Positions 2,232 to 33,908 of a stretch of DNA of 52,270 nucleotides are shown piece after piece. Position 1 is the first letter of the stretch. Each line of letters begins with the position of its first letter. The stretch is taken from positions 1 through 52,270 of the forward strand of contig NZ_JAMQQG010000286.1 of the NCBI RefSeq assembly GCF_023716925.1, read 5' to 3'. The notes under the pieces were generated by a model that saw nothing but the letters and a program-made list of their open reading frames with translations, was not told the DNA's origin and made no database searches. The translations under genes were made by a program, and so were the position numbers. This stretch comes from Frankia sp. R82 (lineage in GTDB: Bacteria; Actinomycetota; Actinomycetes; Frankiales; Frankiaceae).

Positions 2232-2233
2232 CC

Positions 2234-2416: not shown

Positions 2417-2495
2417 GCCGCCCCCGTCGCCCAGCCACCCGCTCCCGTGGTGGCCTCGGACCCGCGCCTGTGCCCCCCGAGAAAGGCAGTCCGCG

Positions 2496-4721: not shown

Positions 4722-5005
4722 GCAACGCCCTGGTCGGGCACATCCTCGAAGATCGCAGCGGCAACCTCGGCCATGCTGTACGTCCTGGCCTCGGGATTCT
4801 CGGCCAGGTCACGGTCGGCTTCGCGGGACAGGTGCCGATCGACGGCGTCCTCGAGTGCGTTGAAATCCTCGATGGGCACCACCGCTGCCACCGGCTGGCC
4901 GTTACGAGTGATCACCGTCGGCGAACCCGCCTGGGCCCGCCCGATCACCTCCGCGAAGTGCGCACGGGCATCCCGCACACTTACCTCGTTCTGCTCGGCT
5001 CCCAC
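4718..5005 (-). CDS. Phd/YefM-family antitoxin
   Basis: The start of this protein, EVSVRDARAHFAEVIGRAQAG, followed by PTVITRNGQPVAAVVP, is the Phd/YefM DNA-binding fold. The C-terminal half, with DLAENPEARTYSMAEVA, is the disordered toxin-binding tail. I place the start at the GTG at 5005 (VGAEQNEV). The reading frame extends to a GTG at 5035, but those extra codons consist of the repeated TGTAC half-sites of the likely operator. The antitoxin should sequester the RelE-type toxin and repress its own promoter. It follows tauD on the same strand at about 100 bp. Confidence 0.88.
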   Translation of the reverse strand: MGAEQNEVSVRDARAHFAEVIGRAQAGSPTVITRNGQPVAAVVPIEDFNALEDAVDRHLSREADRDLAENPEARTYSMAEVAAAIFEDVPDQGVA

Positions 5006-5011
5006 GACCAG

Positions 5012-5037
5012 CAGTGTACTCCCAACTGTGTACACAT
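5012..5037 (-). promoter_or_regulatory. Putative antitoxin autorepression operator
   Basis: The sequence just upstream of the antitoxin contains TGTACT at about 5015 and TGTACACA at about 5030. On the minus strand this reads GTGTACAC-N6-AGTACAC. Repeated palindromic half-sites immediately before a Phd gene fit an autoregulatory operator. This is inferred from position and symmetry only. Confidence 0.4.
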
Positions 5038-5107
5038 CCGATGCCTGCCGAGCCGGGCCGAGGTGGAGGTTGCTGTGCCCCGGCCCGGCGGGGCGCGGGT
5101 GGTCGGG

Positions 5108-13700: not shown

Positions 13701-14112
13701 TGGCCGCGCGTCGAGCCGCCGGCCGGGGTGCCGACGGCTTCCTCGGCGTCACCCGCGTCACCGGCTGTTCCGACGGGCCGGCGGTGACCGACTCGGCCCG
13801 CCGGGGCCCGCCCAGCTGCGCATACTGCCGGACGCCCAGATCAGCGAGGGTGTAGGTCGCCGGGCAACTCGGGCACACCAGCGCCACGCCGGCCATGGTG
13901 CGGCCCCCGTAGTCGTGTCGCTGCCGCAGACAGTGCAAAGTTCCCGCGCAGTCCGGACAGCCGCGGGGCGCCGCCTCCACGTAGGACCAGCCCGGATCGC
14001 CGAACCAGGCCCGGGCCAGCGGCGGATCCACTCCCCAACGCGTCAGCGCGATCTCGCGCACGCTCGGGCCAGCCGGCGCCGCATCCTCCGGGCGCCGCGC
14101 CAGATCCACCAA
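10797..14112 (-). pseudogene. Large DEAD/DEAH-box helicase, split by a 7-bp repeat frameshift
   Basis: Two overlapping frames encode one ~1100-residue helicase. The first frame starts at TTG 14112 (or GTG 14109) behind GGAGGAG. It has a CPDC...C...CPSC zinc-ribbon-like region (residues ~50-85), a helicase core with Walker A APTGAGKT near 350 and DEIH near 445, and runs to about 12712. The product then continues in another frame with motif III GLSATV, FCGSRR, ATTTVAAGVNLPAR and motif VI QQMFGRAGRVG, ending at 10797. At the join GCGCACC is present three times in tandem (12692-12712). With two copies the frames fuse as ARVRGAQSPVRVVGLSATV. It sits directly downstream of the BREX genes and is probably an accessory. 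I cannot name the family beyond SF2 helicase. It could be a true mutation, a reversible repeat switch or, less likely, a sequencing error. Confidence 0.85.
12692..12712 (-). repeat. 7-bp x 3 tandem repeat causing the helicase frameshift
   Basis: GCGCACC occurs at 12692-12698, 12699-12705 and 12706-12712. Two units keep the helicase frame, while three move it by +1. It is the sort of short repeat that changes copy number by replication slippage. Confidence 0.95.
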
Positions 14113-14350: not shown

Positions 14351-14389
14351 AGTTCGGCAGGGTCAGTTCGGCAGGGTCAGTTCGGCAGG
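14351..14389 (-). repeat. 14-bp tandem repeat across the brxHI stop codon
   Basis: AGTTCGGCAGGGTC is present 2.8 times (14351-14364, 14365-14378, 14379-14389). Each copy carries a TCA that reads as TGA on the minus strand, so copy number does not change the end of the BrxHI protein. Confidence 0.85.
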
Positions 14390-16635: not shown

Positions 16636-17984
16636 CCCAGGTCCAGGTCGATGTCATTGGCCCTGGTGGCGGCGGCGTTACGTTCCAGGTCGCTCATCTC
16701 GGCCGAAGTGAGGGTGAGCGGGTAGTCGCGGCGGGGGTCGAAGTCGTCGAACTGGTCGACGCGGTCGAGGACGTCGCCGACCAGTTTCTTCAGGAACAGC
16801 CGGGGGGCGACGCCGACCTTCCCACCGAGGCGCCCGGCGACCGCCCCGGCCAGCTCCCGCAGATAGGCGTCGTCGGCAAGGTGCTCGATCCGTCCCGCTG
16901 CCGCACCGGAGGTTCCGGCCGCATACAGGTCGCGGACCCGTCCGCCGAGTTCCACCAGTGATGCCTCGGTGAAACCGGTCAGCCGCAGCTGTACGGCCCG
17001 CGGGTTGTCGAACTTCGGGTTGGCGGTGAAGTCGGTTGCCAGTCGCTGCGCGAGTGGGGCCAGCCGGGCCGCGCCCTGCGGGCCGTCGTAGAAGGCCGGT
17101 GTCCCGGTGATGACGAGGAACAGCCCCGGGAACCGGCCGCTGTGGACCTCGTCGATGAGCTGGCGCAGCGCGTTCAGGGCCTTGTCGCGGGCGTCGGAAC
17201 GCACCCGTTGCAGGGTTTCGACCTCGTCGAGGACAACCAGCAGACCGCGGAAGCCGCTGTCGCGCAGCACCGCCAGCAGGCCCTGCAGGAATCCGAGGGC
17301 GCCGAAATGGTCCAGGTCGCCACGCACTCCGGCGGCCCGTCGGGCGCTCGCCGCGACGTGCGGCTGCCCGCCGAGCCAGGCGAGCACAGCCGCCGCCGTC
17401 GCCTCGTCACCGGTTGCGAGTGCGGCCCGATATCCGCGCAGCGCGGCGGCGAACGCGGGTGCGGTCCGGGCGACGTCGGCGAGGCGGCGGTCGACGAGGT
17501 CGGCCACGGCCCGGTCCAACGCCTCGGCGTTCACCCCCGCCGCGACATCGGTGGCGAGGACGTCCTCTTCCAGCGCGTAGAACCAGCCGTCGACGACCTG
17601 GCGCAGTGCGCTGGGCGGAAACGTCGCGGTGGTGAGGCGCTCGGTGAGGCGGCGGTAGACGGTTTCCAGTTTGTGCAGTGGGGTTTCGTTCTCCGAGATC
17701 TGCACCTCGGCGACGGCCAGCCCCACCTTCTTGGCGCGTTCGGCTAGCCAGCGGGTGAAGAACGTCTTTCCGGAGCCGTATTCGCCGCGGACCGCCTTGA
17801 ACACCGAACCGCCGGCGGCGACGGCGGCGATGTCCTCGGTGGCGGCCCGCTCGAACCGGTCCAGCCCGACCGCGAGCAGGTCCAGCCCGACCGCTGGAAC
17901 CGCGCCACGGCGCAGCGCGTCCAGCACATCCCGGCGCCGTGCCGCGCTGACGCCGTCGGCGCTCCCCGTGCCTGCGGCGCTCAC
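16632..17984 (-). CDS. brxD: BREX-2 ATP-binding protein BrxD
   Basis: The 450-residue P-loop ATPase has Walker A RGEYGSGKTFF near residue 73, then FTRWLAERAKKVGLAVAEVQ and ISENETPLHKLETVYRRL. That combination is characteristic of the BrxD family (DUF2791). Walker B is LLVVLDEVETLQRV near 252 and a sensor-like VITGTPAFYDG is near 295. The length is normal. The GTG start overlaps the pglZ stop (GTGA) and its own stop overlaps the brxHI ATG. BrxD is an ORC-like AAA+ ATPase of type 2 BREX that probably works with BrxHI. Its exact role in defence is not established. Confidence 0.92.
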   Translation of the reverse strand: MSAAGTGSADGVSAARRRDVLDALRRGAVPAVGLDLLAVGLDRFERAATEDIAAVAAGGSVFKAVRGEYGSGKTFFTRWLAERAKKVGLAVAEVQISENETPLHKLETVYRRLTERLTTATFPPSALRQVVDGWFYALEEDVLATDVAAGVNAEALDRAVADLVDRRLADVARTAPAFAAALRGYRAALATGDEATAAAVLAWLGGQPHVAASARRAAGVRGDLDHFGALGFLQGLLAVLRDSGFRGLLVVLDEVETLQRVRSDARDKALNALRQLIDEVHSGRFPGLFLVITGTPAFYDGPQGAARLAPLAQRLATDFTANPKFDNPRAVQLRLTGFTEASLVELGGRVRDLYAAGTSGAAAGRIEHLADDAYLRELAGAVAGRLGGKVGVAPRLFLKKLVGDVLDRVDQFDDFDPRRDYPLTLTSAEMSDLERNAAATRANDIDLDLG

Positions 17985-20900
17985 TGTGGCAGCCCGAACT
18001 GCTGGCGCAGCAGATCGACGTTGAGCCGCAGCGTGTGGCCGTCGTCGAGCTCGTCCAGCACCGGATAGTTGTCGATGTTGAACAGGCGGCGCAGGTTGAC
18101 TGCGAAGCCGCTGGCCCGCCGGGAGAGCTCGCCGGCCCGTTCGGCCACGACGGCTGTCGCCAGCGTGCCGTTCGCGTCCAGCAGCGCCCGTACCGCGGCT
18201 TCCACCTTGCCCACGTCCAACGGCCGAGCCAGGCCCCTGAGCTGGGACTGGAACAGCTCGGAGCCTAGTAGCCCGGCGACGAGGCGCTCGACCGGATCCT
18301 TCTGGCCACCCGGCGGGGACGGGGCTGTCGACGTCGAACTGCCGGCGGATGTGGCGGGGCCTGGATCGACTCCGCTGCTGGCCGGCTGGGGCAGCTCGAA
18401 CAGGGCCGGGCCGGCCTGTTCCGTCGTGGGCCGGCGACGCTTGCGCGGAGCAAGGGCCGTCTCCGCTGCCCCGCCCGTGACCTCGCGATCGGCGGTGAAC
18501 GAGCCGATGCGGACGGTGTCACCGTCGAGGCTGGGGAGCCACTCGGGCGCCTGCAGGGACCACCAGCGGGGACGCTGATCAGGCAGCGGACGCCAGCCGG
18601 GGGGCAGTTTACGGTGCGTCGATGTCGCGGACAGCCGGAACGGCAGGAAGGCCAGCACCGGAACGGTCGCCTCAGCCGGCGACGCCCCGCCGTGATAACC
18701 GCCCTTACGGCCCAGATAGTGCAGCGCCGGGTCCCAGAGTGCGACGATGCGACCGCCGGGTGCGAGCACCCGTGGCCCGGTGAGCACCACCTCGCCATCG
18801 CCGGTCGCGTTGTCGCCGGTCGCGTTGTCGCTAGCGTTGCCGTCGTTTTCGGCCGGGACGCGATGCCGTGCCGATGCGGCGTCAGCCGCCGCGAGTCCCA
18901 CCGCGCCATGATCGACGATATGGCCGTGGTCGCTGGTCACGATCACCACCCGGTCGGCGTTGCGGGCGTAGGCGAGCACCGCACGCAGTCTGCCGAAGTC
19001 GGCCAGGCTCCAGCCGACGTCCTCACGTTGGCGGCCCTTGTCGAGGCTGTCATCGACTGTGTTGATGACGACGGCGACCAGTGGAGTGTCGGAGGTCAAC
19101 GCCTGGGTGAGGTCGCGATCCAGCGGGGAGCCGGGCGCGCCGTCCAGATCGGCGTGGTGGAACAGTCGGGCGCGGTGCCTGCCCCAGCGTGGATGGTGCT
19201 CGAACGCGACCTTCTCGGTCCCCTTGTCGCCACTGGCCAGCTTGCCGACCAGCAACGAGGTGCGCGAGGTCTTGGTGATGGTTGGCAGCACGGCGAGGGC
19301 GGCCTGCCGGCGGGCGGAGCTGGCCGGCTCACCCGTGGCCTCGCCCGCAGGGGAGCCGAGCGGGTCGCACTCCTGCCAGCGGTCGCGGCGCAGCTCGGTG
19401 GCGAGCTGGGTGGCGACGGCGGCGCTCATACCGTCGAGCACGACCAGCAACGCGCGCCTGCCCCCGCTGGCACCGCTGGCGGTCACGACCGGTGCGACAA
19501 CCCGGTCAAGAATCTCCTCGACGAGCAGTGGCCCGCCGGGCATAGCCGGGCCGGCCGTCCAGTCGGCGAGCAGCCGCGCGAAGGACGCGTCGAGGGCACG
19601 CCGCCGCCGGGTCGCGACGCGGAACAGATCGCCGTACACCGTGCCGATGGCGGGCACCAGCTCTCCGCTGGCCAGGTGGCCGAGTGCGACGTCGACCCAC
19701 GCCGAGTCGTCCAGGTGGGCGTGCAGGGCGGCGGGCAGCGTCGTCGGCTCGTCCGGTCGGTCCCTGCTTCGACGCTTCGTGCCGGACATGCCGGACATGC
19801 CGGACGTGCCGATCTCGCCGGCTGTGACGCTGCGCAGCGAACCGGTGGGCTGGGTGGCGAGCCAGCCCACGATCCGCACCGCCATCACCGCCCGCTCGAC
19901 CTCGGCCCGGTCGATGCCTGCCAGGTGGTGCGCGCGCAGCGCGCCGACGGCGGCCACGACGTCGTGCGCGGCGGTCGCGAGCAGTGCGCGGTTGACGCCC
20001 GACTCGGCGGACGTCAGGAAGTCGCGGATCGTGGTGGCGACGAGCGACAGCCGATGGCGCAACCCGGTCCGCAGGATGTCGCTGGCGGCGCCGGCCGCTC
20101 GGCCGTCGAGCTCGTCGAGCAGGCGCTCGGCGGTGTCGAGCAGGGTCGGGAGCTCGTCGTCCGGGTGCAGGGTGGACGAGGCCGCACTGAGGGTGAGACC
20201 GAGCCGGCTCGTGCCCGGGCGCGTTGCCACGAGTGCGGTCGTCACGACCTCGCGGGTGGCGTCGGCGAACGCACGCATGGACGTCTCGTCGAGCCGGGCA
20301 TCGCCGAAGTAGCGTTCCACACGGACTTTGGCCCGTTCGACGGCCGCGGCCTCCACGGCGGCCGGTCGGGCGGAGCCGTCCGGGTCAGGGTGTGGCCAGA
20401 GGCAGTCGCACACCAGGCCGAGGGCGAGCGCCCGATCGCCGTTGCCGGCGGCGACCAGGGTGAACAGGGTCCGCCCGGCGCGGCCGGTCCGGTCGCCGAG
20501 GTAGGTGATGAGGCCGGTGCGCTCGTCGTCGCCGAGCCGGTGCACCGCCTCGGTCGCGCCGGGGACGGTTGTCCAGCGCAGCAGGGTGGCGATGTCGAGG
20601 TCGGCGGCGCCGAGACCAAACTCGCTCAGGCCGAGCCGGACGGCGGCGAGCTCGGCGAGCGCGTCCTCACGGCTGAGCAGGCCGCCGGGCCGGCGCGGCC
20701 AACCGGCGGGCGGGCGGGCTTCCAGCAGCGCCTGGATGATCCAGCGATCCTCGGGGGCACGCAGCCGCGGATCGGCCTGGGTGGCACCGAAATCCTCCAG
20801 CACGGCCGCCCACGGTTCGATGACGTCGACCCGCTGGCGGTGGACCTGCGAGAGCACCGTGTCGCCGAGAACCTCCTCGTCGGCGTCGGTGAGCAGCACC

Positions 20901-21181
20901 AGCCAGCCGTCCTCGACGGGGTCACGGGCCCAGCGGGTGATCTCCTCCAGCACCGCGAGCGGTGACACGCAGGGCACCACCCGCACCGGCCGGCCGCCGG
21001 CAGCAAGCTCCACGGGCGCCGGCCAGTCCGGCTGGGCACGGACCAGCAGGACGCGCGGCTGACCACCGGGGTTGGTGTGCACGGCGCGTTGCAGCCGGCC
21101 GACCCGGACCTGCACGACGGCCGGGGTCACCCGGGGTGCGGCGGTCCCCGCGGGGCTCGTCGTGGCTACCGGGATGGTCAC
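17981..21181 (-). CDS. pglZ: BREX-2 phosphatase-fold protein PglZ
   Basis: This 1066-residue protein starts at GTG 21181, which overlaps the pglY stop as GTGA. The frame extends 34 codons further but only over the pglY end. The PglZ domain of the alkaline-phosphatase superfamily is in the middle: metal-site LLVVLDGMSAAVATQLATEL near residue 580 and VVIVTSDHGHIVDHG near 750. The conserved C-terminal region (LLGSELFQSQL to LRRLFNIDNYPVLDELDDG) is typical of the type 2 form. In the Pgl system PglZ counteracts the toxicity of PglX and is required for phage resistance. The Asp and DHGH metal ligands are intact, so activity is expected. Confidence 0.95.
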   Translation of the reverse strand: MTIPVATTSPAGTAAPRVTPAVVQVRVGRLQRAVHTNPGGQPRVLLVRAQPDWPAPVELAAGGRPVRVVPCVSPLAVLEEITRWARDPVEDGWLVLLTDADEEVLGDTVLSQVHRQRVDVIEPWAAVLEDFGATQADPRLRAPEDRWIIQALLEARPPAGWPRRPGGLLSREDALAELAAVRLGLSEFGLGAADLDIATLLRWTTVPGATEAVHRLGDDERTGLITYLGDRTGRAGRTLFTLVAAGNGDRALALGLVCDCLWPHPDPDGSARPAAVEAAAVERAKVRVERYFGDARLDETSMRAFADATREVVTTALVATRPGTSRLGLTLSAASSTLHPDDELPTLLDTAERLLDELDGRAAGAASDILRTGLRHRLSLVATTIRDFLTSAESGVNRALLATAAHDVVAAVGALRAHHLAGIDRAEVERAVMAVRIVGWLATQPTGSLRSVTAGEIGTSGMSGMSGTKRRSRDRPDEPTTLPAALHAHLDDSAWVDVALGHLASGELVPAIGTVYGDLFRVATRRRRALDASFARLLADWTAGPAMPGGPLLVEEILDRVVAPVVTASGASGGRRALLVVLDGMSAAVATQLATELRRDRWQECDPLGSPAGEATGEPASSARRQAALAVLPTITKTSRTSLLVGKLASGDKGTEKVAFEHHPRWGRHRARLFHHADLDGAPGSPLDRDLTQALTSDTPLVAVVINTVDDSLDKGRQREDVGWSLADFGRLRAVLAYARNADRVVIVTSDHGHIVDHGAVGLAAADAASARHRVPAENDGNASDNATGDNATGDGEVVLTGPRVLAPGGRIVALWDPALHYLGRKGGYHGGASPAEATVPVLAFLPFRLSATSTHRKLPPGWRPLPDQRPRWWSLQAPEWLPSLDGDTVRIGSFTADREVTGGAAETALAPRKRRRPTTEQAGPALFELPQPASSGVDPGPATSAGSSTSTAPSPPGGQKDPVERLVAGLLGSELFQSQLRGLARPLDVGKVEAAVRALLDANGTLATAVVAERAGELSRRASGFAVNLRRLFNIDNYPVLDELDDGHTLRLNVDLLRQQFGLPQ

Positions 21182-24100
21182 GATGCCGGCTGCCAGACGA
21201 TCTCGATGTCGCCGGGTTGGTCGCCGACATGGGCACGTAGCTCGGCCAGGGCCTGGTCCAGGTCGCTGGCACGGATCCGCCACCGCCGCGCCGCCCCGGT
21301 CGGTGGCTCGACCTTTACTGGCTCGATCTTCGATGGATCGACGATCGGTGGCGTGATGATGACCGGCGGTGTGATCACGGGTGGCGGTGTGATGACAGGT
21401 GGCGGTGTCACCACCGGCGGAGGTGTGATGATCGGTTTGGTGGTCGTCTGGGTGGCGCGTCGAAGCAGTGCCGTCGCCTTGACCCGGGCGTCGCTGAGCA
21501 CCGCGGCCAGCGGGCTGATCACGTTCTCGTCGGCGGCGCCGACGGCCCGGATCCGATCGAGGATCTCTCGAGCCTCGGTCTGGTACGGCTCGGGCAGGCC
21601 GGCGATGACGCCGAACGTCTCGTCCCAGGGCGCTGCCGTGATCGCCGCGGTGAGCTCGGCGGCGTGGCTCATGCTGACCAGGAGTCGCTTCGCGGAACCG
21701 CCGAGGTCGGCCCGCGCGAGGCGCGCCACGATCTGTGGGCCGGCCTTGGGGTCGTCCAGCGCCGAGAGCAGGTCGCGAGCGGCCCGCGCGGTGCGTAGCC
21801 GGCCGCCGGCCGTGCCCTCGCCCGCCGACTCGGCGCCGGCGCTGGCGCCGACACCGGTCTGCGGATCAATCCCGAGATCGGCCGCGTGCGCCTCCAGGAC
21901 CGCGACCAGCTCCTGGCTGGCCGACCAGCGAAGCCTGGCCTTCGCGACCAGCTCCTCGGTGAAGGCGCGCAGCAGCCGGCCTCGCAGCAGAGCCGGCGGT
22001 CGCACCCCGAACAGGGCCTGGGCACGTTCCCCGGCTTCCGCCCACTCGGCCGGGTCGGGCAGCGGCTGCTCGCGCAGCGTCATGTCCTTGCTGATCGCGG
22101 TCAGCTCGGGCGGCGGTGCCAGCAGGCCGCCATACCGGTACCAGGCCCGGTCGGTCTGCTCGGCATATGCGGCGACGACCAGATGGGCGACGTGATCGTC
22201 CAAACCGCGCGCCTTCGGTTCGTCGATCCAGCGCAGCAGATCGGCGACCCGCAGCTCGCTGACGCCCGAACCGGCCGAGCCCGAGCTGGACGAGCCCGGG
22301 CCGGCGTTCAGCGCGGCCTGGGCGGCGTGCCGGGTGAAGTGGTCGACCCATTCGCGGCCGAGCGCGAAGCGCACCTCGTGCATCACGCCGAGCCCGAGCG
22401 CCGGGGCGATCCGGCGCACCGGCCCACGGTCGCTCTTCGCGACCTCGATGGATCCGCCGTCGGCCTCGGCCGCCTTCGTGACGTAGCCGAGCACCAGCTT
22501 GAGGTCGGCGAGCTTCACCGGCACGCCGGTCTGGTCGGGGTCGAGATCCGGATGGCCGGGGAACTGGTCGGCGAGCAGGTCGCCGACGAGCCGCCGTGCC
22601 GCGTCCCGAAACGACGCGCCGAGCGGCAGGGTCGGGTTCAGGCCGGGCCACAACGACCGCAGATGGTCGTTGAAGTCGGCGGTGACGTCGTGTTCGTCCT
22701 TGGAGGTGAGCCCGTAGGCCGAGCGCAGCGTCGTTTTCGTCTTGGTGAGCAGCGCGTCATAACGGCTTTTTAGCACGCTGCGGGCCCGCTGGCGGTCGTC
22801 GGCGCTCAGGTGCTGGGCGTGGCTGTCGAACCGGTGGCCGCCACCGGCGAGCAGATGGTCGAGGCGGACGAGCATGCCCAGGTCGACGAGGCGGGCCGCG
22901 GTGAAGTCGGCCGGTATCCAGCTGACGGTCCGGTGCTGGACGCCCGCGCCGCGCAGCCGTTCGATCCGGGCGCGGGCGTTGACCGGCGGCTCGGCGGCGT
23001 CGTCGAACGGGTAGTCGACGACGATCCGCCAGGACTCCGGGTCGAGGGGGGCGAGCTGGTCGTCACGCAGCTCCGCGCCACGCACCGAGGCGAAGACGAC
23101 CTCGGCGGAGCGCTTGCTACCCCGCCAGACGAGGTCGAGCCGGTCACCGAAGGCATCGCCGGTGACGGTGACCCCCAGCTCCTCGACGAGGATCCGCCGC
23201 ACGAGGGCCCGCCGGTTGCCTGCGCTGTCGTAGCCAACGGCGGAGTTGAGGATGCTGTCGACCTCGACGCCGACCAGCTCCAGGCCGACCCCCGGGTCGC
23301 CGCCGTCGACAGGCAGGTACTTGATCTCGCCGAACTGGCCGGCCCACCGTTCGACCTTCTTGCCGACCTGACCGGCCTCGCCGCCCGGGATCGGGCTGGT
23401 GATGCTGCCGTGGTTGAGCGCCGAGAGCCGCCGCGGGGTGAGGTTGTGCAGCGCCGGGACGCTCGGGGCGAGGGCCGCGAGCAGCAGCGTCTTGACCAGC
23501 CGGTCGTCGGCGGTGAACCGGCGGACCTTGGTGGCAAGCACCTGGTCGACCGCCGCACCGGTGGCCTGGGCGCGGCGGACCTGGGCCAACGCCTCCTCGT
23601 CGAGGCCCTCGGCATCGAGCAGGTACGGACGCAGCCGGCGGCCGTAGAGCTTCTGGGCGGCGTCGAACTCGGCCTTGAGCACGTCGGTGAACGGCGTGTC
23701 GGCACCCCAGGTGATGACGTCCCACAGGTCACCGAGCGGGACGACCTGGCCCAGGCGCAGGTCGTCGCGGTGGTCGACGAGCAGCTGGCGCATCAGTTTC
23801 AGCGCGGTCCGGTTGCGCTGCAGCGCGGAGGACACGTGCACGAGGGTGTCCATGAACGCCGGACTGAACGGGTAGGACAGCCGGAAGGCGTCCCGGTCGG
23901 CGCCGATCTGGGAGCTGCCGCCGAGCATCGTCTCCCACACCTCGGCGCGGACCTTCGCCGTCGTCTCGAACGCCTTCTCGATCGCGCGTGCGGCGTCGGC
24001 GTTCGACGGTTTCAGCAGCCGGCGGTTGGCGATCAGCGGGAGGTTGCGGTCCTCCAGGATGATCTTGTCGAAGCGGCCGTCGGCGAGGGTGAGGACGTCG

Positions 24101-25167
24101 AGGAAGCTCAGCCGCACGTCGCCGGCTACCTGCTCGCCGACCAGTTCGCGCAGGTCACGCTGGCGGGCGATGAAGCTGACGATCGGAACGGCCCGGGCGC
24201 CCAGCCCGCCCTCGACGAAGTTGGTGACCTTCTGGACCTCACGGGAGACGAACGACGGGTCGCCCATGTTGTTCGCCAGCCACAGGATCAGCTCGTCGAG
24301 GAACAGGATGACCGCGTCGTAACCGAGGTCCTTGGCATGCCGGGCGATCTCGGCGAGGCCGGCGTCCAGGGAGATGAAGCCCTCGGCGTCCTCGCGCAGG
24401 TCGCGGTAGGTGTTCGCGAACCAGGTCGAGAGCAGGTCGGAGACCAGCCGGCGACGGGCGGCCGCGTCGTGGGCGGCCGGGGCGAGCGCCGCATCCAGCT
24501 CGGCCGCCGTCCAGGAGGCGTCGTCGCCCCACTCGTCCTGCTCGCCACCGCCCTGCCCACCGAGGCCCTGTCCGCCGAGGCTCTGCGTGTCGCCACTGGA
24601 GCCGGCGCGGTTCAGCTCGGCGAGGAAGGTGGCGTCACCGACCTTGGCCCGCACGTTGCGGGCCTCGTCCAGCAGCGCCTCGGCGCGGTGCACCGCGGGG
24701 ACCGGCGCGCCCGGATGCAGGGTGCGCAGGTGGTCGGCGTAGCCACCGAGGACACGCTGCTCGATCGACTTGGCGCCCAGCAGGTGGAACGGGACCAGCA
24801 GGAACTTCTTGCCGGCCAAGCCCGCGTCGTGCTTGCCGAGCACATCGGTCAGCCGGTCGTCGAAGCTGTGGGCGGCCGGCTCGCCAAGCAGCAGCGCATA
24901 CAGCACCGCCATGAAGTGCGACTTGCCGGAGCCGAAGGAACCATGCAGGTAGACGCCCTTCGACGCCCCGGTGCTCACCGCCTGCGCGATCAGGCCGAGC
25001 CCCTCGTCGAAGTTCCCGACGAGCCGATCGGTCAGCACGTAATCGCGCATCGTCGCGGCCGCGTCGGCGACACCCTCGGTGAGCTTGAGGACGAAGTCAC
25101 TGTCGGAGGTCCGCTCCGGAATGTCGATGACCTCGCGCAGCAGCGGCTGGGACGACGGGCTGGTCAT
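21178..25167 (-). CDS. pglY: BREX-2 P-loop ATPase PglY
   Basis: The 1329-residue ATPase starts at ATG 25167, behind CGAGGTGG. It begins MTSPSSQPLLREVIDIPER. Walker A is HGSFGSGKSHF near residue 75 and Walker B is VILFLDELILWL near 289. The N-terminal architecture is that of the BrxC/PglY family. Near the C-terminus lies a linker of about ten TPPPV/TPP steps (DNA about 21320-21440), followed by a small terminal domain ending DIEIVWQPAS. PglY is the large ATPase of type 2 BREX and probably forms a complex with PglX and PglZ on DNA. It begins 67 bp after the pglX stop and overlaps pglZ by 4 bp. Confidence 0.94.
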   Translation of the reverse strand: MTSPSSQPLLREVIDIPERTSDSDFVLKLTEGVADAAATMRDYVLTDRLVGNFDEGLGLIAQAVSTGASKGVYLHGSFGSGKSHFMAVLYALLLGEPAAHSFDDRLTDVLGKHDAGLAGKKFLLVPFHLLGAKSIEQRVLGGYADHLRTLHPGAPVPAVHRAEALLDEARNVRAKVGDATFLAELNRAGSSGDTQSLGGQGLGGQGGGEQDEWGDDASWTAAELDAALAPAAHDAAARRRLVSDLLSTWFANTYRDLREDAEGFISLDAGLAEIARHAKDLGYDAVILFLDELILWLANNMGDPSFVSREVQKVTNFVEGGLGARAVPIVSFIARQRDLRELVGEQVAGDVRLSFLDVLTLADGRFDKIILEDRNLPLIANRRLLKPSNADAARAIEKAFETTAKVRAEVWETMLGGSSQIGADRDAFRLSYPFSPAFMDTLVHVSSALQRNRTALKLMRQLLVDHRDDLRLGQVVPLGDLWDVITWGADTPFTDVLKAEFDAAQKLYGRRLRPYLLDAEGLDEEALAQVRRAQATGAAVDQVLATKVRRFTADDRLVKTLLLAALAPSVPALHNLTPRRLSALNHGSITSPIPGGEAGQVGKKVERWAGQFGEIKYLPVDGGDPGVGLELVGVEVDSILNSAVGYDSAGNRRALVRRILVEELGVTVTGDAFGDRLDLVWRGSKRSAEVVFASVRGAELRDDQLAPLDPESWRIVVDYPFDDAAEPPVNARARIERLRGAGVQHRTVSWIPADFTAARLVDLGMLVRLDHLLAGGGHRFDSHAQHLSADDRQRARSVLKSRYDALLTKTKTTLRSAYGLTSKDEHDVTADFNDHLRSLWPGLNPTLPLGASFRDAARRLVGDLLADQFPGHPDLDPDQTGVPVKLADLKLVLGYVTKAAEADGGSIEVAKSDRGPVRRIAPALGLGVMHEVRFALGREWVDHFTRHAAQAALNAGPGSSSSGSAGSGVSELRVADLLRWIDEPKARGLDDHVAHLVVAAYAEQTDRAWYRYGGLLAPPPELTAISKDMTLREQPLPDPAEWAEAGERAQALFGVRPPALLRGRLLRAFTEELVAKARLRWSASQELVAVLEAHAADLGIDPQTGVGASAGAESAGEGTAGGRLRTARAARDLLSALDDPKAGPQIVARLARADLGGSAKRLLVSMSHAAELTAAITAAPWDETFGVIAGLPEPYQTEAREILDRIRAVGAADENVISPLAAVLSDARVKATALLRRATQTTTKPIITPPPVVTPPPVITPPPVITPPVIITPPIVDPSKIEPVKVEPPTGAARRWRIRASDLDQALAELRAHVGDQPGDIEIVWQPAS

Positions 25168-25234
25168 GAGCCACCTCGGGTGGTCAGGCGAGTGGTCTGA
25201 TGCATCCGAGTACGGATGGTACGGACGGGGTCCG

Positions 25235-28200
25235 TCACTTTTGCGCCGCCTTCCGGCCACGGGCGGCCGGCGCCGGGCGCCAGCCGGTGAGGGCGTCGGC
25301 GGTCAAGTTGTTCCGGCCCATCACGTCGGCGAGGAACGCGTCGTAGACCTCGGCAGGCGAGCCGTCGTACATCGGGTCAACCTCGTTGTGCCACTGACGC
25401 ACCCAGGGCATCACCTCGTGCAGGCCGGCGAGCAGCGGAGTAAGGCGTTCGGCGTTCCAGCCGTCGTTGTCCTGGCGTTCGACGATGAGGGTCGCCAGCG
25501 CCTGGGCCTGCTCGCGGTGGTCCCAGCCTGCCCAGCCGATCAGCAGCGTCGGATCGTTGTCCGGCCCGGCCGGCTGATAGGAGATGAACCGCTCCTTGGG
25601 AACATCCAGCTTGCCCCGAGCTCGCCAGTAGCTGGGCTTGCGAAAATCGGCCGGGGCGTACTTCGGCGGCACCGGAATGCTGTCGCGGATCGCCTTCGAG
25701 GCCTCCGGATCCGCGGCGGCGTCCTCGGCACGCTGCCGGTCCCAGACCAACTCCCAGTCGGCCCGCTTGACCAGACCAGAGTCTTTGTAACGCAGGGCGG
25801 AGAGGAACGGGACATGCTCGTTCTCGACCAGATCCCTGACGACCCTGGCCAGGTTCTCGCCCGGCCGGTAGATCTCGGCGACGGCGACGAAGTCCGCGTC
25901 GCCGGCCAGCTCGTCGGCGAGCCTCCCGGTGGTCCACAGCCGGGGCTGGACCATGTCGTCGACGTCGGCGAACCACAGTTCGCGGGCCTCCAGCCGGTCA
26001 AGCAGCCAGTCCCGCAGCGCCGCATCCTGAAGCTTGTCCCACCCCTCGGTCGCCCACCGGCGCTTGTACTCGGGCCGCTCGATCAGCCCGATGTTCCGAT
26101 CGGTCTCCATGACGGAGATCCGCTTCTCCACCAACGCCCGGTACTCGGCCGGCCAATGCTCGGGCAGCTCGGTGATCGGGGTGGAGCCATGCCGGGCGAA
26201 CCACTCCGATGCCTCCTCACCGGCCGCGATCTTCCGCGCCAGCACAACCTCGAACGCCCGCTCCCCCAACCTGATCTCAGGAACATCGTCCATCGGCAAC
26301 GTCAACTCATCGGCGAGCAGCCCGTACTGCCGATAAACCTGCCAGTCCAACTCCTCCTGCAACGCAATCATCCGCGCCCGGACGGACTCCCACTCGACCT
26401 GTGCCGCGGCCAGCCGGCCTCGCGTCGGCACCTCGTCTGCAGCCACCGACACTGGGCTCACCGCCGTCAGCCCCTGCGCCAGGCCATCCAGCTCCCGCGC
26501 CAGGTCCAACGGATACTCCGCTGGCAGCGGGAAATCTCGAAGCTTGGTACCGGTGAACTCGTAAAACCGCTCCCAAGCCTGGGACTTAACACCCTCATTT
26601 ACACCCTGACTACCCTTATCATGACTGACCTGCTTGAGCCAGAAGCACGCCGTCGAGCTGTTCAGTACGCCCAGTAACCCCAGATGCTCCCCCTCGCTCG
26701 CATTAATCGGCAGCTTCAGAACTGGCGCTGTGTCTTTTATTGGAATTCCCGCGCGCTCAAGAAAGAAGTGATTATGTGTAGCAACACGCGGATAAGCGAT
26801 TGTGGAAGTACCGTTCATCTTGGAGTGGTACAACTCTCGCCATTCATACCAAGGCCGACCAAGATCACGAAGCGGAACACCGAACCGCTTCCGGAGTGAA
26901 AGTGGCGTTCTCAGCGGCCAAAGAAGATGAAGTATCATGCCGAGGTTGTGGGCGGCGTGCAACTCCCACTTTGCCGAGTACGGCGTTAGGATCCATACAG
27001 GCTCGACCAGTCCCCAATCTCTCACAAATGAACCCTCGACAGCGCAGCTTAGGGAGACCTCAGACCCGAGGGTCGCTGTTCGTCTAACGACATATGCGGA
27101 ATCGTCGCCGGTCGTCACCATTCGCCCGGCTGTGTCAATTATTTTGGCGAGTGGCGGCCGTCCAATATTCAGCCATTCGGCTAGGTCGGCGGCTCCACCG
27201 CCAGACAAGCTCCATGGATGCCGGAAATACCGGCCGATCGGAACATCGGCACACGATACCCATGGGCTCACGCTTCCTGGATGATCATATTGCTTCTTGA
27301 TGGCTGACCATACAAGCCCTTTGGAAGGATCGGTCGGGATACTTGGCTCGCCGAGAATGCCGAGTACCGACCGAACGACACCCCCCTTGCTGGGCCACTG
27401 CCGGCGGCCAAGAATAATTACGGTCGGCGTTCCATGGTGTGGAATATGTGCCAGCGAAACATCGATCACTCTATTTAGAGTAATTTCCGGGAGGAAGTCA
27501 CGTACCAATTTTGTGCCAAACTCACGCTTCATGAATGAATTTGCTGTGATTTGTCCAACAAAACCACCGCCACCGGCAGCACCGTCCGGACGCGCAAGTT
27601 TAAAAAGGCGCTCGAAAAATGGGATAGTTAGAGCATATTCACGATGACAGTATGCGTAACGATCGCGATAAGCTTTAGAAATTTTCTTATCTGCCACCTG
27701 AATGTAAGGAGGATTCCCCACGACCGCATGGTAACGACCCTCGTCGAGAATCCCAGGGTGAGCAGCAAGATCCTCTGTGGCGTAGGTGAATTCCGCGAGT
27801 TCGTCGCGGGCATCGCCGAAGAGGTCTGGTTGACGATACTTGATCAGCGAGTCACCGGTGGCGACATGCAATGGGAATGTGTAGCCGGCCGCCGAGTCCA
27901 AGACCGTCACCCCGGCGACACGAAGTGCCTCGATGGTCAGGCGGAACTTGGCAATGGCCGATGCGTAGGGGTTGACATCGACGCCGTGCACCGCATCCAG
28001 TGCTAGCTGTACCCGTTCGAAGACGTCGCGGTCGGGGGCGTTTTTCTCCCACTCGGCGAGCAGTCTGCGGAACGCCCCCAACAGGAAATGGCCGGAGCCG
28101 CAGGTGGGGTCGATGAGTTTGACGACGTCGTAGCCGAACTCGTCGATGGCGGGGGTCAGGGTCAGGTCGAGGATGAACTCCTCGACGAACTCCGGGGTCT

Positions 28201-28807
28201 GGAGCAGGGCGTACTTCTTGCGAACGTCTTCGGAGAGGTCCTGGTACAGGTCGCCGAGGAAACGGGTGTCCCAGGTTGCGTCGGTGAAGTCGTGGATCAG
28301 GGTGCCGGACTCGGTGCGCCGCCGCCAGAAGGCAAGGAGGTTCTTGGCCGCGTCGTGGGTGGGCGGGATCTGGAACAGGGCGTTGTGCCGTCGGTCGAAC
28401 AGGGCGGCGCCGACCGATACTTTGGCGATCTCGTCGAAGCTCGCCAGCAGCCAGTCGCGGGCCGTCTTCTCCGGGTGGCGGGTGTAGAAGTCCTCGGTGC
28501 GCTCTTCTGCGAGGGTGAGGCGGGCCGTCGTGGGGCCGGCGAGGTACGGGTCGCCGATCAGGCCGTTGTCCTCGCAGAAGCGGACAAACACGGTGCCCAG
28601 CACCCAGGCGACCGCCGCCTGGGTGACCCGCTCACCGAGCCAGGCCGACCAGGTCGCCGCCGTCCGGCCGACTTTGAAGGCCCGGTCGTACTCGGCGCGC
28701 AGCCGCGTTCCGACCTCGGTCACCTCGTCGACCTGCGCCCGCAGATCCTTTTCCAGGTCCTTCACCTGCCGCTGAGCGTCCTTCAGCAACGCCACCCGGT
28801 CGATCAC
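25235..28807 (-). CDS. pglX: BREX-2 adenine-specific DNA methyltransferase PglX
   Basis: This 1190-residue protein starts at GTG 28807, behind GGGGGAGAGG. The SAM-binding motif [14 protein letters not shown] is near residue 240 and the catalytic NPPY ([14 protein letters not shown]) near 365, both of N6-adenine methyltransferase type. A long C-terminal region contains the presumed target-recognition domain. The DNA from just after NPPY to about residue 740 (27730-26590) is visibly AT-richer and uses codons such as AAA, ATT and TTT that are rare elsewhere, a sign of domain exchange. PglX marks host DNA in BREX and Pgl systems and is the specificity subunit. It sits 49 bp after pglW and 67 bp before pglY. 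Confidence 0.95.
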
Positions 28808-28856: not shown

Positions 28857-31800
28857 TCAGGACGCCTTCCCGGCCCGACCCGGCCCGGCATCGCCGGACC
28901 CGGACCCGGACCGGTGCCAGTTGGTAATCCAGGCGTCCGGCAGTGCTATCCATTCGCTCTCGGTCGCCACCTGGACCAGGGCGCCGTCGAGGCGTGGCGG
29001 GCGGGTCGGCTCGGTCGTCGGGCAGAGCACCCAGACGGGCCGTCCGCCGGCGCGGGCCCGCTCGGCGAGCGCGAACAGCAGGTCCATGCCGCGGCCGGCG
29101 TAGCGGCCGAAGATGCCGGCGTCGTGCAGCAGCAGCGGCGCCGGTCCACCGTGCGGCCCGGTCCGGCCGGGGGTGTCGATCAGCCCGGCGAGCAGAGGCG
29201 CGGCCCGGTCCCAGGCCGTCCGGACGTATTCGGCGAGGTTGCCAGCGGCGCGGCTGCCCGGCTCGGCGGTGTCGGCGCGCAGGATCGTGGCCCAGGTCGG
29301 CCTGGGCCGGGGGTCGACCTGGGCGTGCAGCGCGTCGAGGAAGACGGCGGCGACGTCAACCGGCTCGGCGGCGAACCGGTGCGGCAGGGCGAGCTCCGCA
29401 CGGGCGGCCAGGTAGCGGCTGCGCCGAACGGTGAGCGCCCGGAACCCGCCGGCCTCGGCGGCGGCGACGAGTCGCTGTTCGGCAAGCGACGCGGCCGCCT
29501 GCTCGGGGCTGTCGTGGACCTGCCGGGCGGGGCGGCTGCCCAGGTTGGTGGGTTGGCGCACCGACGGTGTCGCCCGCGAGCCGAGCCCGGTCGAGGTCAG
29601 CAGGCGATAGGGCGGCACGTAGCCATCGCGGGCCGCGTCCCATTCGAGGACGAACCCGGCGTCCGCCAGGGGGCCGTCGAGCGCGGGATGTGTGGGCAGC
29701 CTGGTCGTCAGCCCAGGGAAGCGGGTGGTGACGCGTTCATGGATGGCCGGCACCTCGAGCAGCGGCCGGTCGGGGCGTTCACCCGGACCGCCCGGCTGTG
29801 CCGGGATCGGAGCCGGCCGGGGTGGCAGCACTCCGGCCTGTGCCAGTCGCAGCGCCCGGACGAGGCCCAGATCGCGCGGGTAGATCTCGAGGCGGGCGTT
29901 GGCGGCGGCGTTACGGGACGCGGCGGCGGCGAGCCGGACGAGACGCTGCTCGTCGAGCGCCGGCAGCCCGGCGAGCCCGTCAATCACCCCCGCGGCATCG
30001 CCCGCCGAACCGGCCTCGTCCGCGTTGCCTGCGTTACCCGCGGCCGGGGCGGCGGCGCGGACGGCTGCGAGCTCCCGCAGCACGGTCGCCGGTGCGGGGA
30101 TCTCCTCGGCCTTCGCCAGCCGGTCCGCGGCTTTGCCGAGGGCGATCGCGTAGGCGAACAGCGCGGGCGCGGTGGGTGTGAGCGGGCCGTCGTCCTCGGC
30201 TGCCTCCAGGGCCACGAGCGTCCGGTCGTAGAACTTCCGGCGCGCGAGGGTGGGCTCGCTGTCCCGGTCGACGGTTTCCAGGGCGGCGCGGACCGTGGCC
30301 GCTCCCAGCGCCCGGCGCTCCGCTGGCGGCCGTCCGCTGCCATGACCGGCCAGGATGGCGGTCACCAGGTCCTCGAAGCCCATCACCCGGCCGGCATCGG
30401 CCAGGATCTCGACCAGCTCGTCGCGGACCGAGCGGACCGCGCGGTCGGCATGCCAGGCCTTGCGGCGCGCGATGAGCACCTGCGCGATCCGGCCCGGCGT
30501 GACCCCGACCCGCTCGGCTACCTGCTGCTGCGGCGCCCACAGGGGCACCTCCGGGAGCCGTCCCTCGCCGTCGGGGAGGCCGAGCAGCAGACGGGTCGCC
30601 TCTCGTTCGGTGGCGTTGCGACCGCCGGGCAGGGCTCGGGGCAGCAACCGGCCGGCCAGCTCCTCGACGGGCATCCGGGCGTAGTCGGCCGCGGCGCCCG
30701 GGGCGTCCGCCGAGGGCGGTTGCTGGCCGGCCGAGCCAGGCTGGTCAGCCGTTGTCTCCGGGGCGGCGCCGGTCGTCGTGCCAGTTCCGGCCGCTGCTGC
30801 TGCGGCGGCGGCGGCGAGGGCGCGGCGCCACTGGCGGATGCGGGACTGCAGTTCCTGGCGGGTCTTCGCACCCGTGCCCGGCAGACTGATGATCTCCTTC
30901 GAGCCCAGGGCGAGCAGGTCGCCGACAATCGTCGCGTTCAGCCGGTGTGCCGCCGAAACCGCCCGCGGCGACAGACCCGCGGCCTCCAGCGGGGTCTCGC
31001 TCGTCGCCACCGCGGCGGCCGCGTCACGGGCCCGTCGCGCGGACTCCTCATCGTTGTCGCCCCCGGCCACCACCGACCCGGGGGCGACAACGAGGGATGC
31101 ACGGCCAGACGGGCCCGCTCCGTCGTGCGCCGCGGGATGAGCGGTGTTCGTCGGCGGGGTCGAGTCGGCGGCGCGGAAGACGGCGTGCCAGGCGTCCCGC
31201 ATGTCCTTCAGCGCCGCGAAGCGCCGGGTGGCATCCCGGTCGAACGCTCGCAGGAAGAAGGAGGTGAGGCCGGCGCGGATCGCGGGGTCGAACGCCTCCG
31301 TCGCCACGGTCGGCGGTCCCTGGGTGAACCGGGCCTCGGCCGAGCCGTCCCCCCACAGCGGCAGCTCACCGGAGGCCATCTCGTGCAGGGTGACGGCCAG
31401 CGCGTAGCGCTCCGCGTGGTCGTCGTAGGTGGTGCGCAGGCCGGTGCCGAGGAACGGGTCCAGGTAGCGCGGGGTTCCGGCGGCGACGTCGCGCACCGAG
31501 TGGTTGGCCAGCGAGAAGTCGATGAGGACGAGCTGGTAGGTGCGGTTCGGCCGGCGCCTGATCACGATGTTGTCGGGCTTCAGGTCGCGGTGGGCGACGC
31601 CCTCGCCGTCCAGGTAGTCGACGGCGCCGAACAGGTAGTCGCTGTAGGTCTCCAGCTCGTCGACCGACAGGCGGCCCTCGCGCAGCTTGCGGGCCACGGT
31701 CTGCTCGCCCGCATGGTCCAGGACGAGGACGGCGCGCCCGCCGATCAGCAGGGTGTCCGGTCGGGCCAGGCGGATCACCCGGGAGTCGCCGAGGCGGCGC

Positions 31801-33746
31801 AGGACCGAGGCCTCATGTGCCAGCCGCGCCGCCCGCTCGTCAGAGAGGGCGACCTTGAGGACCTCGTCGCGGTTGGTCCGCTCGTTGTGCGCGAGGAACG
31901 CCCGGCTGGTCGAGCCGGTGCCGAGGCGCTCGCGCACGCGCCACTCGCCGCCGAGCAGATCGCCGCGCTGGGCCTCCAGGGGGTCGGGCTCCGGCTCGTC
32001 CTGGCCCGGCGGGTTCGTCGGCGACGCCGTCCCCGTTGCGTCCGCGTCGCCGGAGACCCCGGAGTCGCCGGCCGCAGCATCCCCCGCCGCGGAGTTACCG
32101 GCCGCTGCGGCTGAGTCCGGACGGAGCTCCTCCTCCACGAGCACAAGCCAGTCCAGGAATTCACCGACGCTCGCGTGCCGGTCCTCGGGCAGCGGCTGGG
32201 TTGCTCCCGCGACCAGATCGTTCGCGGTCTCGGACAGCGAGTCGACGACCTCGGCGGGATGCAGGGCGCCGGACTGCTCCAGGCGGGCCTTCAGGGCGTT
32301 GGGACCGTCCGCGGGCGGCTGGCCGGTGAGGATGAGGTAGGCCAGTGCGCCCAGGCCGAAGACGTCGATCCCGACCGGGTCCGGAAAGGGCGCGCCGATC
32401 TCGGGTGCCAGGTAGCCGGCGGTGGCCAGCTCCAGATGCGGCAGGAACCGGGCGGCCGGCTCGATCGCCAGCGCCATCGACGTCTTGCTCATCGCGCTGG
32501 TCAGGACGCCCGTACCCGACCCGGAGCCGACGTCGCGGGCCGCGGCCTGCCAGTCGCTGATGACCAGCCGGGGCGCGAGCCAACCCTGCTCGTCGCCGGT
32601 CTGTCGGCTGCTGTGGCGGCCCGAGGGCACGACCAGAACGCTGCGGGCCGCCAGCGCCCGGTGATAGAGGTGGCGGCCGTGCGCGTAGGCGACGGCCTCC
32701 GCCAGCTGGCGGATCATTCCGAGTCGGGTTTCGGCGTTCAGGCGGTCGCCGTAGCGGTCGAGATACTGGTCGAGGCGCAGTTCGTCCGGCCGATGCCGGA
32801 AGATCAGCGCCGGGCCGGCCTCGTGGCTTTCCAGTCCGTCGACCTGAACGATGCCCGGATGGTCGATTCCGTGCAGCACCAGGAACTCGCGGCGGGCGGT
32901 TGCCTCGCGGCTTGCCCGCTCGGCCTCGCCCGCGGCCCGTTCGACGAGGTAGATCCGCACCCGGCGGCGCTCGGAGGCGACCTGGGCATGGGCGGCGTGG
33001 TAGTCCTGCCAGGTAGGGCCCGAGTCGTACGCCGGGAACTCCAGCTGCCAGGAGCCGACCTGCTGGTGGCGGCGGCTTCGCGCGATCCCGACCGCCGGCA
33101 GCAGCTTGGCGAGCGCCTTCGACAGGTCGGGGAGGATCCGCTGCCGCTCGTCGCGCAGGGGCGCGTCCAGCAGACCGGACCAGATCGACGGCAGCGCGTT
33201 CCTGGTGGCGGTGCCCGTGGCCGAAGCGGGGCCGAAGATCCAGTGCAGCTGGTGGTCGGGAAGCTCGACCCGCAGGGTGGGGTTCGACAGGAAGACCGCC
33301 GGTTGGATGAACGGAACCCGGACCCGCCCCTTGCCGTGCGCGCGGCTGGCGTTCTCCAGCAGGGAGCGCAGCTCCTTGGACTTCTGGTTCGCCAGGTGCA
33401 GCGGGTTGTCGAAGATCCGCGGCTGACCGGTGGCACGATGCTGGGTCCAGTTCGACCCCGAGGCGGTCAGCCGCCCGGCCAGGCTTTTGATCTCGATGAG
33501 ATAGACCCCGCCGCGGGCGATGACCAGCAGGTCCACCTCGCGGATGTGCCCGGTCGTCGCGGTGAACGTGAAGTTCGACCAGGCCCGGTAGGGCTCGGCA
33601 TCCGGCAGCAGCGCCCTGACCTGCTCCAGGGCCTCCCGCTCATGCGAGAACTGCGACGCCGTGACCGTCTCCCACCGGCCCTCCCCCTCGCGCACACCGA
33701 CCCCCGCCGTCGTCGCGACGCCCACCCCCAGACGCCGCACCCCCAT
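28857..33746 (-). CDS. pglW: BREX-2 serine/threonine kinase PglW
   Basis: The protein has about 1629 residues and starts at ATG 33746 (a TTG lies three codons upstream; neither has a good ribosome site). A NERD nuclease-like domain is near residues 35-170, with EVDLLVIARGGVYLIEIKS keeping the D...E-K core. A first kinase-like domain (~220-540) has HRALAARSVLV where HRDLKxxN is expected and SDWQA where DFG is expected, so it is a pseudokinase. A second, complete kinase (~600-860) has GTGSTSRAF, HRDLKPDN near 717 and LIDFSLAN. An RpoA-CTD-like helix-hairpin-helix is near 935 (TIVGDLLALGSKEIISLPGTG). A sigma-region-4-like helix-turn-helix is near 1085 (QQVAERVGVTPGRIAQVL). PglW is the first gene of the BREX-2 operon and is thought to control the system by phosphorylation. 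Confidence 0.94.
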   Translation of the reverse strand: MGVRRLGVGVATTAGVGVREGEGRWETVTASQFSHEREALEQVRALLPDAEPYRAWSNFTFTATTGHIREVDLLVIARGGVYLIEIKSLAGRLTASGSNWTQHRATGQPRIFDNPLHLANQKSKELRSLLENASRAHGKGRVRVPFIQPAVFLSNPTLRVELPDHQLHWIFGPASATGTATRNALPSIWSGLLDAPLRDERQRILPDLSKALAKLLPAVGIARSRRHQQVGSWQLEFPAYDSGPTWQDYHAAHAQVASERRRVRIYLVERAAGEAERASREATARREFLVLHGIDHPGIVQVDGLESHEAGPALIFRHRPDELRLDQYLDRYGDRLNAETRLGMIRQLAEAVAYAHGRHLYHRALAARSVLVVPSGRHSSRQTGDEQGWLAPRLVISDWQAAARDVGSGSGTGVLTSAMSKTSMALAIEPAARFLPHLELATAGYLAPEIGAPFPDPVGIDVFGLGALAYLILTGQPPADGPNALKARLEQSGALHPAEVVDSLSETANDLVAGATQPLPEDRHASVGEFLDWLVLVEEELRPDSAAAAGNSAAGDAAAGDSGVSGDADATGTASPTNPPGQDEPEPDPLEAQRGDLLGGEWRVRERLGTGSTSRAFLAHNERTNRDEVLKVALSDERAARLAHEASVLRRLGDSRVIRLARPDTLLIGGRAVLVLDHAGEQTVARKLREGRLSVDELETYSDYLFGAVDYLDGEGVAHRDLKPDNIVIRRRPNRTYQLVLIDFSLANHSVRDVAAGTPRYLDPFLGTGLRTTYDDHAERYALAVTLHEMASGELPLWGDGSAEARFTQGPPTVATEAFDPAIRAGLTSFFLRAFDRDATRRFAALKDMRDAWHAVFRAADSTPPTNTAHPAAHDGAGPSGRASLVVAPGSVVAGGDNDEESARRARDAAAAVATSETPLEAAGLSPRAVSAAHRLNATIVGDLLALGSKEIISLPGTGAKTRQELQSRIRQWRRALAAAAAAAAAGTGTTTGAAPETTADQPGSAGQQPPSADAPGAAADYARMPVEELAGRLLPRALPGGRNATEREATRLLLGLPDGEGRLPEVPLWAPQQQVAERVGVTPGRIAQVLIARRKAWHADRAVRSVRDELVEILADAGRVMGFEDLVTAILAGHGSGRPPAERRALGAATVRAALETVDRDSEPTLARRKFYDRTLVALEAAEDDGPLTPTAPALFAYAIALGKAADRLAKAEEIPAPATVLRELAAVRAAAPAAGNAGNADEAGSAGDAAGVIDGLAGLPALDEQRLVRLAAAASRNAAANARLEIYPRDLGLVRALRLAQAGVLPPRPAPIPAQPGGPGERPDRPLLEVPAIHERVTTRFPGLTTRLPTHPALDGPLADAGFVLEWDAARDGYVPPYRLLTSTGLGSRATPSVRQPTNLGSRPARQVHDSPEQAAASLAEQRLVAAAEAGGFRALTVRRSRYLAARAELALPHRFAAEPVDVAAVFLDALHAQVDPRPRPTWATILRADTAEPGSRAAGNLAEYVRTAWDRAAPLLAGLIDTPGRTGPHGGPAPLLLHDAGIFGRYAGRGMDLLFALAERARAGGRPVWVLCPTTEPTRPPRLDGALVQVATESEWIALPDAWITNWHRSGSGSGDAGPGRAGKAS

Positions 33747-33908
33747 TTGTCGCAATGAGGGAGACTAGACCACTGTTGTACGACCAGAGCGAACTGGTGG
33801 CCACGCTTGGTCGCAATCACCTCCGCACAGGCCATCCGGGTGATTACTGCGCGCAGCACGGGAAGCCGACATCCTGGGCCGTAGGCTGGTGCGGTGGGAG
33901 GTCGTGGG

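Follow-up and report, generated by a model that had tools for sequence, protein, structure and literature searches.

The window analysed here is the whole 52,270-nucleotide stretch of contig NZ_JAMQQG010000286.1 of Frankia sp. R82. Its minus strand carries an operon that is, judged by its gene content, type 2 bacteriophage exclusion (BREX; Pgl), and the pglX gene of this operon has a middle part that is AT-rich and unlike that of its relatives. We consider it very probable that this block is an exchanged specificity cassette, which begins at about the catalytic NPPY motif and takes in the rear half of the methyltransferase fold as well as the whole target recognition domain (TRD), and which sits in a native frame made up of the N-terminal half, the C-terminal spacer and DUF7008. 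In both composition and phylogeny the block stands apart from the frame, and repeated replacements of the segment have taken place among relatives, even between frames that are 99% identical. Conserved frames, unrelated middles and conflicting trees, the marks by which the exchange of a TRD is recognised, were all found. Exchange of this kind is known for restriction-modification specificity genes. The parts of pglX are as follows.

25235..28807, minus strand: pglX, type 2 BREX adenine methyltransferase/specificity gene; start at codon V29, open frame reaching 28891
27704..27715, minus strand: motif IV (NPPY) at residues 365-368, close to the left-hand limit of the block
26513..27880, minus strand: AT-rich, very probably exchanged block, from GC changepoints at third codon positions
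26588..27280, minus strand: predicted TRD, residues ~510-740, from profile mapping to BREX-1 PglX, the structure model and its matches
26630..26662, minus strand: conserved stretch, residues 716-726, among the conserved stretches near the right-hand limits
25250..26371, minus strand: C-terminal DUF7008 (Pfam PF22654, 554 bits), part of the conserved frame

The start codon V29 (window 28807) was placed where homologues begin to match, and residues are counted from it; counted from M1, values are 28 higher, and NPPY begins at residue 393. The product scores 1700.8 bits with the BREX-2 PglX model NF033451 (cut-off 400) and 1681.7 bits with PADLOC PglX.

An AT-rich block inside pglX

A preliminary description of this DNA had reported an AT-rich mosaic block inside pglX with ordinary high-GC flanks, and both the changepoint fit and the genome background bear it out. 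With two changepoints fitted, GC at third codon positions (GC3) is 0.878 before, 0.535 within and 0.882 after the block, a log-likelihood gain of 89.6 as compared to a maximum of 12.2 in 200 permutations. The middle 900 bp of the block has a GC content of 0.532, lower than all 425 background windows of its own genome (147 kb in 20 contig stretches of the 6.9-Mb assembly), while the middle of the orthologue in genome G017 has 0.571, with 1 of 1280 background windows there as low. No such block is present in any other gene of the operon; this comparison of five genes drew on 7 to 10 islands per gene (6 for pglW). The position given earlier for NPPY, residue ~365, which was likewise counted from V29, was exact. 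The limits had also been called sharp, which does not hold, since the GC3 edges are graded: the fitted fall starts ~55 codons before NPPY, GC3 reaches its minimum of 0.30 (40-codon windows) immediately after the motif, and 60-80 codons or so are needed for it to recover.

Two simple causes of the shift were rejected. At four-fold degenerate sites of the window gene, GC is 0.89 in the backbone and 0.54 in the TRD; because the shift is seen at these sites taken by themselves, amino-acid composition is ruled out. Divergence alone does not suffice either, as control bins with an identity as low as ~0.46-0.56 hold a GC3 of at least 0.83, except bin 1 of pglZ (identity 0.50, GC3 0.69), whereas pglX bins over residues ~373-722 lie 9.2 to 12.1 residual standard deviations below the GC3 expected from a regression on identity (101 control-gene bins, first bin of each gene excluded). 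The five control genes do have lower GC3 in their less conserved bins (r 0.39-0.75), and the strong pglX dip sits atop this mild trend.

Conserved frames with unlike middles in Frankiaceae

Divergence had been expected to be confined to this segment, with the catalytic start and the C-terminus staying near those of relatives, and the alignment agrees. In the Frankiaceae set (ten full-length pglX genes, that is, the window and nine relatives, plus one partial gene), pairwise identity is 80-97% in the N-terminal part and 39-61% in the middle, both over all eleven genes, and 81-90% in the C-terminal part over the ten. Each of the nine full relatives has its own mid-gene GC3 dip, the weakest being that of L009. 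The segment is AT-rich across Frankiaceae relatives, yet different in sequence in each; thus, vertical conservation of the same AT-rich block holds for composition and fails for sequence.

The nearest backbone to that of the window belongs to L003 (N-terminal identity 0.94, C-terminal 0.90), and compared with it the block at the DNA level covers residues 370-704 (~26696-27700). The mean identity of the window TRD is 0.37 when it is compared with the nine near relatives, and 0.36 for the 109 distant genes. Its best match, at 0.46, is L033 from Pseudonocardiaceae, with which it groups in the TRD tree, away from the eight near relatives included there and also from L011 and L013 (99% support). 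Residues 365-465 have an identity of 0.57 to the near relatives, which share 0.78 among themselves, and of 0.56 to distant genes. By this comparison the segment right after NPPY is foreign as well, which explains why the preliminary description placed the start of the block at NPPY.

TRD and backbone are decoupled in BREX-2 pglX

The wider comparison comprised 119 BREX-2 pglX genes, the window and 118 of 121 loci (L012, L141 and L146 were excluded as incomplete or split); 72 of the 119 come from one genus (g24, presumably Streptomyces; 60 of the g24 matches were retrieved), so the rows are not independent. TRD identity, measured over residues 468-707, is nearly unrelated to backbone identity (Spearman 0.06 in 1806 pairs with a backbone identity of at least 0.65): the median stays at 0.43-0.45 in each backbone class from 0.65 to 0.95, and is 0.40 in the seven pairs at or above 0.95. 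The clearest exchange is seen between L080 and L258, which share 0.99 of both the N- and C-terminal parts and 0.46 of the TRD; in 20-codon bins their DNA identity is 0.88-0.98 to residue 340, 0.37-0.78 at residues 341-820 and 0.85-0.98 beyond. Recombinants can be recognised in trios, at least 15 of which were found. For example, L264 combines the frame of L190 (0.95; TRD 0.37) with a TRD akin to the one in L266 (0.70; frame 0.78). Some pairs retain the same TRD, such as L242 and L249 (TRD 0.91, frame 0.95), which indicates that exchange is frequent and not universal.

The trees conflict in both directions. In approximately unbiased (AU) tests the backbone tree was rejected on TRD data, with p 1.1e-6 for 12 Frankiaceae-centred genes and p 3.6e-5 for 21 g24 genes picked partly for their recombinant look, and the TRD tree was rejected on backbone data, while the N- and C-terminal parts alone each favoured the backbone tree; L003 was not in the AU tree test. 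The preliminary description had offered two explanations, exchange of the target-recognition segment or diversifying selection, and the tree conflict together with the decoupling of TRD and backbone favours the first. If the segment diverged in place, through point mutations that accumulate very fast under diversifying selection and with no exchange, TRD identity should climb with backbone identity, which it does not, and frames at 99% would not be expected to carry TRDs at 46%. Nor would this explain that the window TRD resembles its sisters no more than it resembles other families, that the trees conflict, or that the moderately conserved segment after NPPY was replaced along with the TRD; we regard divergence in place as very unlikely.

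Over 59 pairs the left limit of the block falls at residues 301-545 and the right limit at 671-876 (10-90% ranges; one pair, L266/L287, was mis-segmented because L266 is truncated). The limits seem, as judged by eye, to recur near NPPY (365), GHGTPTVI (456), NSSTACFW (716) and a conserved stretch at residue 811.

Several points weigh against the explanation as an exchanged cassette. The donor of the window block was not found in the 119-gene set, where the best TRD match is the 0.46 given above, and the TRD DNA had no blastn match to phages. The frames are mosaic too, since L008 shares 94% with the window in the N-terminal part and 83% in the C-terminal part; the limits are graded and vary between pairs, and there may have been several nested exchanges; the genes of the second AU set were, as noted, picked in part for looking recombinant; and the change of target among these alleles is one that we infer.

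Another rival explanation is programmed switching within the genome, by invertible or silent cassettes, by domain movement between two TRDs or by a diversity-generating retroelement. An inverted repeat of 16 nt without mismatches, of which one arm lies inside the block (27234-27249) and the other in the conserved C-terminal part (26088-26103), would be consistent with it, and domain movement is documented for restriction-modification specificity genes (PMC3077401). However, the window's own assembly (95% complete) holds no second copy of the block, the only hit (E 0.4) being due to chance. The L258 block, looked for in four g24 genomes, matches nothing there but pglX-length open frames, and the surrounding repeats are short and imperfect. 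PglX has one TRD and not two between flanking repeats, as domain movement needs, and no silent or extra specificity cassettes, as in a shufflon, were found in the own assembly or the four g24 genomes. For a retroelement, no second copy of the block was found, and reverse transcriptase was not searched for. Taken together, local switching is extremely improbable.

Exchange between genomes, our preferred explanation, would proceed as follows. A divergent pglX allele would enter the cell, and recombination at flanking stretches conserved in all alleles would replace the block, while the conserved ends would keep PglX fitted to the other BREX proteins. The new block may then read a new site, and would alter both what DNA is treated as self and the range of phages that are excluded; phage pressure would favour new blocks. 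It is very likely that the exchange resets the methylation target.

Structure of the exchanged unit and known systems

A structure model of residues 180-835 built from 103 sequences has a mean predicted local distance difference test score (pLDDT) of 89.4 and a predicted template modelling score of 0.82; it replaced a first model from 19 rows, which was poor in the TRD (mean pLDDT 62.4). Its matches are CamA (7rfk, Z 31.1), E. coli BrxX (9ewz_C, Z 27.9, root-mean-square deviation 3.6 over 541 residues), MmeI (5hr4, Z 23.8) and M.TaqI (Z ~21). In PMC11842806, the BrxX TRD is given as residues 651-837 and NPPY as 508-511, the TRD is reported as the most variable part of BrxX, and the methyltransferase domain and the TRD are both said to help in reading the site. 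By profile alignment with BREX-1 genes, this TRD maps to residues ~510-740 of the window PglX, and the exchanged unit is, according to the model, the rear half of the methyltransferase fold together with the whole TRD. As both domains of BrxX read the site, there would be a reason to swap the two together.

BREX-1 BrxX/PglX proteins (E. coli HS, Salmonella; PDB 9ewz, 8c45) share the order of methyltransferase, TRD and C-terminal region, and BREX-1 pglX genes have a variable, AT-shifted segment too; BREX-2 differs in its DUF7008 C-terminus and in having PglW and PglY in the operon, while in the BREX-1 set the low-identity stretch extends past the TRD to about residue 1000 of L307. Type IIL/IIG methyltransferases (MmeI, CamA, M.TaqI, DrdV) have the same methyltransferase-then-TRD fold, whereas the window PglX has no nuclease domain detectable by Pfam and works within a BREX operon. 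In H. pylori, type I and IIG specificity genes also move target-recognition segments between alleles while the frame stays, but, according to PMC3077401, they have two TRDs and flanking repeats; pglX has one TRD, no such repeats were found around it, and its exchange is between genomes. Earlier work covers pglX of E. coli and Salmonella (PMC9009780), TRD divergence between BREX types (PMC12839542), and PglX structure and engineered specificity (PMC11341690). Neither pglX TRD exchange shown by phylogeny nor an AT shift of the pglX TRD was found in the literature searched, with most subscription papers lying outside that search.

The operon and its neighbourhood

The remaining genes of the operon, all on the same strand, are listed below.

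28857..33755, minus strand: pglW kinase gene (NF033442, 1667.6 bits, above the cut-off of 990)
21178..25260, minus strand: pglY, BrxC-like ATPase (PADLOC BrxC-PglY, 1504 bits)
17981..21283, minus strand: pglZ (NF033446, 952.6 bits, above the cut-off of 200)
16632..17984, minus strand: brxD (PADLOC BrxD, 669.7 bits)
14377..16635, minus strand: brxHI helicase (PADLOC BrxHI, 1085.7 bits)

With NF047891, pglY scores 1446.8 bits, below the curated cut-off of 1700, although this is its best match and nearly the whole model is covered. Next to brxHI lies a minus-strand gene (11629-14112) whose product has a DEAD helicase domain. A PglX match is present in 23 of 35 genomes of the order, the own genome counted, while BREX-1 PglX above cut-off is present in none of the 35.

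In other genomes, pglX is at times broken or separated from pglY. In G011 (L020, from 1501-2190 onward) it is a decayed remnant from residue ~800 with two stops. On a plasmid of Candidatus Thiodictyon syntrophicum (L141) it is annotated as two genes (1501-3978 and 4482-5657), and a small gene lies at the split, which separates the part with the TRD from the C-terminal part. An F. canadensis-like pglX was rejected as a genuinely split gene, since its two contigs overlap by 9 bases, which looks like an assembly break. Extra genes lie between pglX and pglY in the relatives L072 (5554-11046), L077 (9205-14058), L076 and L079; judged by eye, the insert of L072 holds an ATPase-like gene and that of L077 a restriction-endonuclease-like gene with a toxin-antitoxin-like pair. 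The pglX/pglY junction thus looks like an insertion hot spot.

A general AT shift of PglX TRDs

The AT shift of the TRD relative to its own backbone, also in AT-rich hosts, is less expected than the exchange itself. At four-fold sites of the 119 BREX-2 genes, GC is 0.863 in the backbone and 0.591 in the TRD, with the TRD lower in 115 of 119 (114 of 119 by GC3). AT-richness is therefore a standing property of the segment and not the mark of one recent donor, and any inference from AT-richness by itself to a single recent import needs correcting. The gain of A (0.136) and of T (0.133) in BREX-2 TRDs is equal, which leaves no signature of strand-specific deamination, and strand-biased mutation was rejected. 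In 18 BREX-1 pglX genes hand-picked for taxonomic spread, from Lactobacillaceae to Paracoccus, the TRD lies below the backbone in 17, both at four-fold sites and by GC3, AT-rich hosts (Nostoc, Acinetobacter, Enterobacterales) included. In the four Enterobacterales genes of this set, identity falls from 0.78 to 0.46 at the bin that follows NPPY, and it remains low up to about residue 1000 of L307; the same genes have an earlier identity dip of 0.48 at residues 401-440.

A tentative explanation, which we hold plausible without giving it the better part of our confidence, is that the blocks come from an AT-shifted source, such as mobile elements, an accessory gene pool or lower-GC donors, and give way to new blocks before their composition has adapted to that of the host. 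The composition of BREX-2 TRDs is indeed independent of their high-GC hosts (four-fold slope 0.02 +- 0.14, 119 genes), and a few of them are GC-rich (L207, L208, L210, L016, L018), so AT-richness is no structural need. In contrast, BREX-1 TRDs track their hosts (GC3 slope 0.77 +- 0.13, four-fold slope 0.71 +- 0.17) and are shifted even in AT-rich ones, which contradicts the single donor pool of intermediate GC at which BREX-2 hinted, and no donor was found.

A doubtful alternative is that the alleles are too unlike to recombine within the block, which would thereby escape a GC-raising process (GC-biased gene conversion or codon selection) and drift to an AT-biased mutational balance. This fits the presence of the shift in nearly all genes of both types over a wide range of host GC, the equal gain of A and T in BREX-2, and the loss of GC3 with falling identity in control genes (r 0.64). 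However, equally divergent control segments lose far less GC3, with the pglX bins 9-12 residual standard deviations low, and the stretch that follows NPPY shows a strong shift despite only moderate divergence. Polarised synonymous changes from A or T to G or C and the reverse number 303:545 in TRDs and 139:714 in backbones; with outgroups that are too distant and a parsimony artefact seen in the backbone counts, these numbers carry no weight here.

Type I specificity genes were rejected as a parallel case. In Frankiaceae, hsdS matches have a mean GC3 of 0.74, with 13 of 30 below 0.75 (30 of the 65 listed matches, one locus each), and whole hsdS frames are equally low, with no intragenic dip like that of pglX. 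A search for lower-GC BREX-2 of the Verrucomicrobiota type matched 2 of 194 genomes and was not used further.

More speculatively, and rather unlikely on present evidence, PglX TRDs of BREX-1 and BREX-2 alike might be a compartment that has a base composition of its own: exchanged whole and too unlike to recombine internally, they would escape the GC-raising process of the host and drift to AT over a wide range of host GC. If this is true, exchanged specificity modules would in general be marked by intragenic AT dips, and TRD blocks would be natural probes of what maintains high GC in bacteria.

Our results indicate that in type 2 BREX, which is the phage growth limitation system as first described, a stable defence machine is kept while its address label is swapped, and that its target specificity cannot be deduced from the species. 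Exchanged specificity segments may be recognisable from sequence alone by the general AT shift, which also allows an AT-rich source of the blocks to be tested directly against their escape from GC-raising processes.
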